DNA of 64,000 bases from an uncultured cyanobacterium. GTDB taxonomy: Bacteria > Cyanobacteriota > Cyanobacteriia > Cyanobacteriales > Geitlerinemataceae. The notes below the pieces were generated by a model that was given only the letters and a program-made list of their open reading frames with translations, was not told where the DNA came from and did not search any database. The stretch covers positions 1-64,000 of the forward strand of contig CALCCD010000103.1 in NCBI GenBank assembly GCA_937899645.1. The letters are read 5' to 3'. The position numbers and the translations under genes were made by a program. Shown here piece by piece: positions 32,522-52,063 of the stretch; position 1 is the stretch's first letter, and each line of letters starts with the position of its first letter.

Positions 32522-32582
32522 ACGCCCTGCCGGGAATCGATTTCGCTTCAATTGGGCTTCGCGTTAATCAACAGCGGAGCGA

Positions 32583-32598
32583 TGTGAGCGGCGTCACG
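32583..32598. promoter_or_regulatory. CRP/SyCRP1-like palindrome, unit 1
   Basis: TGTGA-GCGGCG-TCACG: fits the CRP-family consensus TGTGA-N6-TCACA at all but the last base. It lies 125 bp before the GTG of the first 56-residue gene, and an equivalent site stands before the second copy. Confidence 0.6.
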
Positions 32599-32663
32599 AC
32601 TGCACTGGGTGTCAGGTCACGAGTAGTACGGCCAGATGTCACGTAGATTTGCGGAGACGATCG

Positions 32664-32692
32664 CTGAAGGAACCAGGCTAGAACGCGATACT
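32664..32692 (+). promoter_or_regulatory. Putative promoter of unit 1
   Basis: A GATACT -10 hexamer at 32687-32692 sits 30 bp before the start codon, with a weak CTGAAG at the -35 position (17-bp spacer). Both hexamers recur at equivalent positions in unit 2 (33120-33148), which is the main support. Confidence 0.45.
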
Positions 32693-32722
32693 GAACATAT
32701 CGAGAAACGAGGTCGCAAGATC

Positions 32723-32893
32723 GTGTTCAGCAGCTACTCTTCCGAATACATTTTTTCGCGTGCATGGGAAACGGGCTACATCCGCCGAACAGATTGGGAG
32801 TGCCTGTGTATTGGGTTGGACGAGCCGACCCACGACATTGCGGCGCGTCTGCTGTACGCGATTCGTCGCGGCCGCTTGGCGATTGTTGATTGA
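32723..32893 (+). CDS. 56-residue protein, first tandem copy
   Basis: Start taken as GTG 32723 because it aligns exactly with the ATG of the second copy (33180), and both are preceded by GAGGT at the same distance. A longer open frame reaches back to 32636 but that part has no protein-level match in copy 2. The two proteins align without gaps and are identical at 40 of 56 positions. Conserved core: FxRAxExGYIRRxDWE, PTHDI, YAIRRGRLxIVD. It is basic, predicted helical, with one invariant Cys (LC). The YIRR-DWE-L-C start followed by a helix and a short strand (RLxIVD) could be a small DNA- or protein-binding fold. No family was recognised. Confidence 0.7.
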   Translation: MFSSYSSEYIFSRAWETGYIRRTDWECLCIGLDEPTHDIAARLLYAIRRGRLAIVD

Positions 32894-32960
32894 GCACCAA
32901 CATATCGTCGATCGCTTCGACCTCTCGGTATTTAAGTCTGTCCGAAAGTGAGTGGACATG

Positions 32961-32991
32961 TGGGCGCTGGGTTTCCAGCGTCCATTTTTTT
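32961..32991 (+). terminator. Intrinsic terminator of unit 1
   Basis: 10-bp stem TGGGCGCTGG / CCAGCGTCCA (one G-U pair), loop GTTT, then seven T at 32985-32991. It ends the first duplicated unit 67 bp after its stop codon. Confidence 0.85.
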
Positions 32992-33038
32992 CGAGTACCG
33001 TGCCTGGAGCTTTTACTGCAGACTACGCCGAAAATCGA

Positions 33039-33054
33039 TGTGACTGGTGTCACA
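33039..33054. promoter_or_regulatory. CRP/SyCRP1-like palindrome, unit 2
   Basis: TGTGA-CTGGTG-TCACA is an exact match to the CRP-family consensus TGTGA-N6-TCACA used by cyanobacterial SyCRP1. It lies 125 bp before the ATG of the second copy, the same distance as in unit 1. Confidence 0.65.
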
Positions 33055-33119
33055 GCCAGACCGAGATCGAGATCGCAAAAAACGTCGCGAGGCATCACAT
33101 AGATTTACGGAGGCGATCG

Positions 33120-33148
33120 CTGAATCGAGCTTTGTAGTCCGCGATACT
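33120..33148 (+). promoter_or_regulatory. Putative promoter of unit 2
   Basis: A GATACT -10 hexamer at 33143-33148 and CTGAAT at the -35 position, 17 bp apart, match unit 1 in sequence and distance to the start codon. The weak -35 would suit an activated promoter. Confidence 0.45.
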
Positions 33149-33179
33149 AAATGAAGTTAAGAGATGAGGTTCGAGACAG

Positions 33180-33350
33180 ATGTTTGGCAGTTATTCTTGC
33201 AACTATATATTCACGCGGGCCGTGGAACGAGGCTACATCCGCCGCGTAGATTGGGAGCGTCTTTGTTTGGCATCGGACGCACCGACTCACGATATTACTG
33301 TCCGCTTGATGTACGCTATCCGTCGCGGTCGCTTGACGATTGTCGACTGA
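33180..33350 (+). CDS. 56-residue protein, second tandem copy
   Basis: ATG 33180, TGA 33348-33350, with GAGGT about 11 bases upstream. The sequence begins MFGSYSCNYIFTRAVERGYI and ends YAIRRGRLTIVD, a gap-free paralogue of the gene at 32723 (40 of 56 identical). Conservation is strongest at GYIRRxDWE, PTHDI and the C-terminal YAIRRGRL. Third-position changes dominate the nucleotide differences (for example ggctacatccgccg is kept while ctgtac becomes ttgatgtac), suggesting selection on protein. It has its own upstream CRP-like site and terminator. Function unknown; possibly a small regulator. Confidence 0.75.
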   Translation: MFGSYSCNYIFTRAVERGYIRRVDWERLCLASDAPTHDITVRLMYAIRRGRLTIVD

Positions 33351-33394
33351 GCGTCGCAACCAAATTTCGAGCTTGTCTGAATGTGAGTCAGATT

Positions 33395-33426
33395 GCGGGT
33401 GCTGGGGTTTCAGCGCCCGCTTTTTT
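33395..33426 (+). terminator. Intrinsic terminator of unit 2
   Basis: 10-bp stem GCGGGTGCTG / CAGCGCCCGC (one wobble pair), loop GGGTTT, then six T at 33421-33426. It is closely related to the unit 1 terminator, showing that the 3' region was duplicated with the gene. Confidence 0.88.
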
Positions 33427-33535
33427 GCATCCGTGGGGGATCCGTCGCGCTTTTCCCGCTGCCGCTCCACGTGAGACCGTGACGTGAGACAGTAAGGCGC
33501 GGCAATTCCGAACCTCCTCCGACTCCTTATCAATC

Positions 33536-50587: not shown

Positions 50588-52063
50588 TTATGCAAACGGC
50601 GTCGAGAACAGCTCCTTCAAACGCTGGCGAATCCAGGTGGCGGGGCTGCTCCCGATTTGGTTATTGGCGTGCATCTCGCGCCAGACTTCCGGATAGGCTT
50701 GCAGGGCTTCCTTGCGGCGAACGAGTTCTTCGGCGATGTGTGCCGCTAGGAACGGGCAAGAGTTTAGCAGCTTCTCGAAATTCGCTCGATCGATGGTGAA
50801 TAGCGTCGTCTCGGCGATCGCGCGCAGCGTCCCCGGCGAGGGCACGCCCAGCATCAGCGGCAGCTCGCCAAAATACTCGCCTGCCGCAAATGTCCGCAGG
50901 GCTTGTTCTCGATCGATCTGCCGGTGGCACACCTCAATTTCGCCTGCCAGCACGATGCAAAACGCCTCAAAGCTTTGACCCTGCTCGACAACGACATCAC
51001 CCGGTGCGAGCTGCTGGCGAAACCCCAGTTCGATCAGGCTGCGAAGCTGGAGTTCGTTGAGTTCCGTGAAGAACGAGATCTGCAAGAGCTTGGTTCTCAA
51101 GGACTCAAAAGCGGACGGCTTGGCGGCGGGTGCAATTTCCCGATCGCCCTGCGGTTCGCTCGCCTGAGTACCCGACCAGTTTGCTCCAAGCTCGGACGAA
51201 CCCTCCACTGGCCGCATCGCCACATCGAGCTGCGGAAATGGAATCGAGATTCTCCGCTGTCGCAAGTAATATTCCACCGCAAACGTCACTTCGCTTTTGA
51301 TGCTGGCGCGTAAATCGACGCGATCGACCCAAAACACCAGCTTGAAGTTGAGGGCGCTGTCGCCAAAGCTGTCGAAAATCACCTTCGGGGGAGGATTTTG
51401 CCGCACGCTCCCCAGCGAGTAGGCCGCTTCGAGCAGCGTTTCCGTTACCAAAACCGGGTCGCTAGCGTAGGCCACACCCACCGCGATCGACAGCCGCCCG
51501 CAGGTATCGCGGTAGTTCCAGTTGGTGATGCGCTCTTCGGCCAGCTGGGAGTTGGGGATAATCACCTCGCCGCCATCGAGGGTGCGAATCACCGTCGATC
51601 GGATGGCGATTTCTTCGATATAGCCCGCCACATCGTCAAACTCGATAAAGTCGCCGACGCGCAGCTTGCGCTCGAACAACACCGTCAGGCCGCTCAGCAG
51701 ATTTTTCGTGATGTCCTGAAGTCCGAAGCCAATCCCGACGCCGAGACCGCCGACGATTACAGCGATCGAAGACAAGTCGAGACCGCTAACTTGCAGCACG
51801 ACTAGATAGCCAAACGTGCCGATACCGAGGCTGACCAGGGTCGCGATCGCCTCGCGGTTGCCGCTGTCGATCTTGAGCTGTGCCAGCAAGCGATTGCGCA
51901 GAAAGTTCTTAAGCGCGCGGGTGACGATGCCGACCGCGAGCAAAGCCGCGACCATCTGAACCGCCCAAAGCAAGGTAATGGGTTTACCGCCCAGCTCGAA
52001 CAGTGTTTTTTGGAAGATCGGATGGAGAAGGTCGGGCACGATCGCGACGGGGATGGTTCTCAA
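50588..52063 (-). CDS. MscS-type channel with C-terminal cyclic-nucleotide-binding-type domain
   Basis: 491 residues. N-terminal membrane helices, then the MscS pore helix region GGLGVGIGFGLQDITKNLLSG, the beta domain with GDFIEFDDVAGYIEEIAIRSTVIRT and PNSQLAEERITNW, and a linker of 30-40 residues. A cyclic-nucleotide-type domain follows at about 345-460 with GEYFGELPLMLGVPSPGT. This is the bCNG class, known in Synechocystis. In the phosphate-binding cassette the conserved Arg is replaced by Ser409. It may be a gated channel responding to another ligand or to none. It lies 9 bp downstream of the CYP120-like gene on the same strand. Confidence 0.88.
   Translation of the reverse strand: MRTIPVAIVPDLLHPIFQKTLFELGGKPITLLWAVQMVAALLAVGIVTRALKNFLRNRLLAQLKIDSGNREAIATLVSLGIGTFGYLVVLQVSGLDLSSIAVIVGGLGVGIGFGLQDITKNLLSGLTVLFERKLRVGDFIEFDDVAGYIEEIAIRSTVIRTLDGGEVIIPNSQLAEERITNWNYRDTCGRLSIAVGVAYASDPVLVTETLLEAAYSLGSVRQNPPPKVIFDSFGDSALNFKLVFWVDRVDLRASIKSEVTFAVEYYLRQRRISIPFPQLDVAMRPVEGSSELGANWSGTQASEPQGDREIAPAAKPSAFESLRTKLLQISFFTELNELQLRSLIELGFRQQLAPGDVVVEQGQSFEAFCIVLAGEIEVCHRQIDREQALRTFAAGEYFGELPLMLGVPSPGTLRAIAETTLFTIDRANFEKLLNSCPFLAAHIAEELVRRKEALQAYPEVWREMHANNQIGSSPATWIRQRLKELFSTPFA

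Follow-up and report, generated by a model that had tools for sequence, protein, structure and literature searches.

Tandem units for 56-residue proteins in an uncultured cyanobacterium, with a phased array of CRP-type half-sites as their probable promoter

Two tandem units were found in a 64,000-nucleotide stretch of DNA (hereafter the window) from an uncultured cyanobacterium of the family Geitlerinemataceae. Each is read as a transcription unit with a single gene, under a promoter built from CRP-type sites in a phased array. The explanation that best fits the evidence, and which we consider reasonably probable as a whole, is that cooperative loading of cAMP-CRP drives stand-alone proteins of the type of the CdgR N-terminal domain (CdgR-N), which may act on CdgR or its partners. 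What appears to be new is how otherwise known CRP-type sites are arranged in the promoter, together with the family that it drives, whose domain is a known one. The open-access literature searched, which is a part of the whole literature, contained no description of either the arrays or the 56-residue family.

The units extend from 32583 to 32992 and from 33039 to 33426, and both contain a palindrome, a -10 box, a ribosome-binding site, a 56-codon gene and a terminator in the same order. The repeat distance is 456/457 bp and the DNA identity between the units is 73-75%. The original prediction, made from this sequence, of a duplicated unit with shared elements was confirmed, both palindromes lying at the coordinates it gave; the GATACT boxes, GAGGT motifs and start codons (GTG in copy 1, ATG in copy 2) are present in the units as it described. 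The features are as follows.

32583..32598, + strand: copy 1 CRP-type palindrome TGTGAGCGGCGTCACG, distal head of the array, one mismatch to TGTGAN6TCACA, position common to same-genus relatives
32594..32664, + strand: copy 1 array of four TC(A/G)C half-sites at 32594, 32617, 32639 and 32661 (spacing 23, 22, 22), from the sequence and the periodicity in 130 family promoters
32687..32692, + strand: copy 1 -10 box GATACT, 26 bp past the start of the last half-site, predicted transcript start about 32699, from the consensus of 74 promoters
32709..32713, + strand: copy 1 ribosome-binding site GAGGT, 9 nt 5' of the start codon, from the sequence
32723..32893, + strand: copy 1 56-residue protein, GTG start, from protein alignment and dN/dS
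32960..32992, + strand: copy 1 intrinsic terminator, 11-bp stem and U-tract, folding z -3.8
33039..33054, + strand: copy 2 CRP-type palindrome TGTGACTGGTGTCACA, perfect (0 mismatches to TGTGAN6TCACA), distal head of the array
33050..33120, + strand: copy 2 array of four TC(A/G)C half-sites at 33050, 33073 (TCGC), 33095 and 33117 (TCGC), spacing 23, 22, 22 as in copy 1, from the sequence
33143..33148, + strand: copy 2 -10 box GATACT, 26 bp past the start of the last half-site, predicted transcript start about 33155, from the consensus of 74 promoters
33166..33170, + strand: copy 2 ribosome-binding site GAGGT, 9 nt 5' of the start codon, from the sequence
33180..33350, + strand: copy 2 56-residue protein, ATG start, from the sequence and an AlphaFold model (m2a13eef6e4cb, pLDDT 84.8)
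33395..33426, + strand: copy 2 intrinsic terminator, 11-bp stem and U-tract, folding z -3.4

The GTG at 32723 is the likely start of copy 1, since an in-frame ATG at 32636, which would give 85 residues, lies upstream of the -10 box. The terminator stems, predicted as 10 bp, are 11 bp long in both copies. The two proteins align without gaps at 71% identity, and the differences between the genes, described before as lying mainly at third positions, are distributed 13/8/26 over the three codon positions. Selection on the protein had been proposed and agrees with dN/dS values of 0.13-0.18 (NG86, LWL85, ML) and 0.42 (YN00), a ratio near 1 not being seen. Rfam gave no match on the window at gathering thresholds. 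An RNA-leader element was dropped as a reading because the array is located upstream of the -10 box and the predicted leaders fold no better than shuffles. Elsewhere in the window (50759-51016, - strand) a cyclic-nucleotide-binding domain was noticed at the end of an apparent mechanosensitive-channel protein.

The proteins belong to an unnamed family of cyanobacterial proteins of 56-80 residues. Two profiles were used, a genus profile (A1), which brought out the wide distribution of the family in cyanobacteria, and a broad profile of 42 sequences (A2), and 386 genomes of the phylum were sampled with the latter. Many homologues were recovered by the search that the original prediction had proposed, with members in 67 of the 386 genomes and up to 15 copies in each. 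The source genome contains four clear paralogues on other contigs, and two same-genus genomes contain two members each. The tree joins the two window copies with moderate support (84/89), which is what a tandem duplication would produce. Pfam, NCBIfam and PHROGs contained no match to the 56-residue proteins above the curated cut-offs; scattered matches with E > 0.005 were at chance level and were rejected. One paralogue (L003, G000:C93:17279-17449), which apparently has the same upstream neighbour as its relatives L008 and L009, lacks the palindrome and a clear array, and its regulation may have changed. The source genome has another two paralogues side by side, with degenerate arrays (L005 and L006, G000:C92:5332-6043). 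A sister family, A5, consists of proteins of 65-76 residues with the signature IREVVQQALxTGYLTxEAEN... (L231 in G045, L251 and L254 in G168); its genes, some of which are tandem copies, have the same arrays.

On the evidence of profiles and a structural model, the nearest relative of the family is the N-terminal domain of CdgR/ComFB (Slr1970, PDB 8hja, residues 1-58), at the level of remote homology. The A2 profile matched residues 2-52 of 8hja among the PDB sequences over the full domain length, with an E-value (0.015) that is marginal, as the PDB E-values for CdgR are. Profile-profile comparison of A2 with CdgR N-termini from relatives gave a score of 30.7 (E 6e-6); 200 column shuffles scored at most 19.7. 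The genus profile A1 gave no significant match to CdgR-N, significance being reached with the broad A2 only, so the link draws on the broad family and the model. Family A5 is closer to CdgR-N than is the window family (hhalign probability 95%, E 2e-8, shuffles below 17), and it matches A2 with a score of 26.7 (shuffles below 16). For the model of copy 2, the best structural match was 8hja residues 1-58 (Foldseek probability 0.93, TM 0.71), with a Z of 6.5 against 3.9 for the next best; since the Foldseek E-value is 0.46, the structural match alone is not decisive. A match to PDB 7on8 was rejected, as it covers only ten residues, repeated six times.

Length and order of secondary structure elements are the same in the 56-residue proteins and in CdgR-N. 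CdgR/ComFB also has a ligand-binding ComFB domain (PF10719), for which the 56-residue proteins are too short and which had no Pfam match in either of them; they are therefore not members of the CdgR/ComFB family. They end, unlike CdgR, in a basic RRG motif. This motif, conserved as RRG[RWH] near the C-terminus, together with the small size and a helix-turn-helix-like element order in the AlphaFold model, would also suit a DNA- or RNA-binding regulator whose function is unrelated to CdgR and which perhaps feeds back on its own array. However, no DNA-binding family was matched significantly and CdgR-N, as the best match of both structure and profile, stands clearly ahead, which makes a nucleic-acid-binding regulator rather unlikely.

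The head palindrome is rare in the source genome, TGTGAN6TCACR occurring at only six places in 4.5 Mb, two of them in these units. Its retention in relatives, another expectation of the original prediction, was observed both within the genus, where 7 of 10 genes have it 140-142 nt upstream of their start codon, and across the family. A best TGTGA-N6-TCACA with at most one mismatch was present within 300 nt of 73 of 130 family members, and of 22 of 477 controls (Fisher p 2e-38). The controls were starts of further open frames from these loci; as the frames are mechanical open reading frames, some of them are not genes.

Alignment of the palindromes revealed further TCAC motifs downstream in register. 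Family promoters carry arrays of 3-6 TC(A/G)C half-sites, one every 22-23 bp, with the palindrome as distal head. In the 130 family upstream regions, same-strand TCAC-TCAC distances of 22 bp were counted 100 times (expected 0.8) and of 23 bp 78 times (expected 0.5), with further peaks at the multiples of 44-46, 66-69 and 88-91 bp. GTGA has no such periodicity in these regions, so the array is oriented. Chains of at least three elements were present in 77 of the 130 regions. At the symmetric half-site position of the inner elements (-8/-7), GA was found in 43 of 150 cases where 7.5 were expected (p 3e-21), for 22-bp and 23-bp spacings alike, and each inner element therefore looks like a degenerate dimer site.

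The -10 box follows the last half-site at a fixed offset of 26-31 in 74 family promoters. Its consensus is GATA(C/T)T, with A at position 2 and T at position 6 in 98% each, and the first position is G, A or C but never T (32687 and 33143 in the window). A TATCGAGTTCA-like stretch is conserved 3' of the box, at the predicted transcript start; taken with the missing T at position 1, it may point to an unusual sigma factor. When the box is set at -12 to -7, the last half-site falls at -38 to -35, where class II CRP sites have their proximal half. Class II CRP and NtcA promoters have a site centred near -41.5 and a -10 box about 22 bp downstream. The units share with them the TGTGA/TCACA motif and, by their predicted transcript starts, would also resemble them in the proximal half-site and the distance to the -10 box; they differ in that a tandem row of 3-6 elements at intervals of 22-23 bp, the strong palindrome being the most distal, takes the place of one site at -41.5, and in the atypical GATA(C/T)T box. 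To our knowledge, contiguous CRP dimers at 22-23 bp are unusual. Array, spacing and -10 position are established as a promoter architecture by the statistics of the sequences.

Both window copies have an element near -41.5 in the fixed register, counted from predicted transcript starts, but it is degenerate, with TCGC in place of the stronger TCAC, and coincides in part with a GCGATCGC-like repeat of a kind common in cyanobacteria. The CTGAA that had been taken for a -35 box is in fact the flank of the last half-site in the array (GATCGCTGAA). The palindrome was also correctly said to be further from the transcript start than usual for CRP activation; the distance stands, while the puzzle does not, since the palindrome is the head of a phased array that ends at the predicted class II position.

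Three CRP/FNR-type factors are encoded in the source genome (L049, L050 and L052), together with 16 nucleotide-cyclase domains. L049, on contig C64, is SyCRP1-like and matches CRP relatives in PDB; by inspection it has the cAMP-pocket residues E, R and S and a recognition helix RETVTR, which is expected to read TGTGA. SyCRP1 binds TGTGAN6TCACA with cAMP, and the SyCRP1/AnCrpA regulons predicted by Xu and Su (2009, PMC2633013) involve the same palindrome and the same kind of CRP as here. Single sites were scored in that work, whose main text neither mentions tandem or half-site arrays nor names the 56-residue family. Among order-mates, family genes were present in 51 of the 86 genomes that have an L049 orthologue and in none of the 19 that lack one (p 6e-7), a weak family match (E 4e-4) in one of the 19 not being counted; within family f33 the numbers are 25 of 37 and 0 of 5 (p 0.007). 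These co-occurrence counts are confounded by descent. Genomes without an L049 orthologue contained no arrays besides one low-complexity repeat, and some genomes with an orthologue also have none.

CRP as the binder, its cooperativity and the dependence on cAMP are likely, judged from these sequence features. The array might instead be bound by DevH, SyCRP2, another CRP-family factor or some other protein that forms polymers along the DNA, with the palindrome as nucleation site. Textbook CRP sites are not arranged as direct half-site repeats at 22-23 bp, two more CRP-family proteins are available in L050 and L052, and the lack of T at the first -10 position hints at an unusual sigma factor or activator. 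Yet the head fits the CRP consensus and the inner elements retain CRP half-site symmetry; by inspection the recognition helix of L050 lacks the R-E-R pattern and L052 is NtcA-like, NtcA sites being GTAN8TAC; and family genes were found only where an L049 orthologue exists, arrays being absent elsewhere apart from the repeat mentioned. A binder other than the CRP orthologue is accordingly held to be unlikely.

A search for three consecutive RTCAC at array spacing gave 98 matches in ten genomes, compared with 2 for the reversed-pattern control. In a hand tally they form about 66 clusters; A2-family genes follow about 31 of these, and genes of sister family A5 follow 4. Matches in genome G147 were rejected as promoters, since they are a low-complexity GTCACCGAGTCAGGA repeat. 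The array combined with GATAYT was matched 24 times in 12 genomes (control 1), with 14 of the 24, and three of the four in the source genome, preceding family or sister-family genes. A reading of the array as incidental, with ordinary CRP regulation from one distal site, would fit the palindrome being the only full site per unit, but is very improbable with a 22/23-bp periodicity more than 100-fold above shuffled sequence across the family and a reversed pattern nearly absent from whole genomes.

The remaining array and GATAYT matches precede other small or signalling proteins, including DUF2949 and, by inspection, a PAS-type sensor and peptidoglycan-binding-like and TPR-like proteins. Array promoters were seen before L265, L299, L301, L294, L309, L253, L261 and L300, which encode DUF2949, DUF4278-like, peptidoglycan-binding-like and TPR-like proteins and a PAS sensor. 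Such variety suggests a wider regulon. No arrays were present upstream of the cdgR and crp genes in the loci tested, which gives no sign of autoregulation. In genome G045, L257 and L260 have the same array and downstream frame although they are far apart; a mobile element is possible.

Under the preferred explanation, a cAMP-bound dimer of the CRP orthologue L049 would bind the full palindrome at the distal end, and more dimers would load side by side on the degenerate sites every 22-23 bp, each offering one TCAC or TCGC half and, as a rule, a weak GA opposite it. The dimer closest to the -10 box, with its centre near -41.5, would touch RNA polymerase and activate transcription from the GATACT box. 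The response of such an array to cAMP would be steep and thresholded. The protein made would be a stand-alone CdgR/ComFB N-terminal domain, CdgR/ComFB being a protein that binds c-di-GMP and c-di-AMP (PMC12313861) and that in Anabaena acts partly via the CRP-family factor DevH (PMC13075795). As the 56-residue protein lacks a ligand-binding domain, it would most likely compete or pair with CdgR or bind its partners (DevH in Anabaena), so that the cAMP output would tune the c-di-GMP/c-di-AMP output. Action of the 56-residue proteins on the CdgR pathway is put forward tentatively. The fuller proposal, in which a new type of promoter, the phased CRP array as cooperative cAMP switch, drives the CdgR-N family and cAMP thereby rewires the output of the c-di-GMP/c-di-AMP receptor, is possible but somewhat doubtful. 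The first interpretation of the units, as a cAMP-responsive pair of small regulators, was upheld in part, namely in protein selection, homologues, palindrome and the presence of an encoded CRP; that the proteins are regulators is a conjecture, and the array and the likeness to CdgR-N were not foreseen.

Targets of cyanobacterial cAMP signalling have looked poorly conserved between species (PMC2633013). The arrays offer a sequence-defined regulon for part of this signalling, and an unusual promoter design that is directly testable for cooperativity. The proposed mimicry of CdgR-N provides a lead to the function of a widespread, unannotated family of small proteins. If these proteins act on CdgR or DevH, c-di-GMP control of cell size and motility would be tied to cAMP. 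The array design stands before many related cyanobacterial genes, a hint that two signalling systems may be linked in a hidden way; if this is true, domain mimics would directly cross-wire two second-messenger systems.
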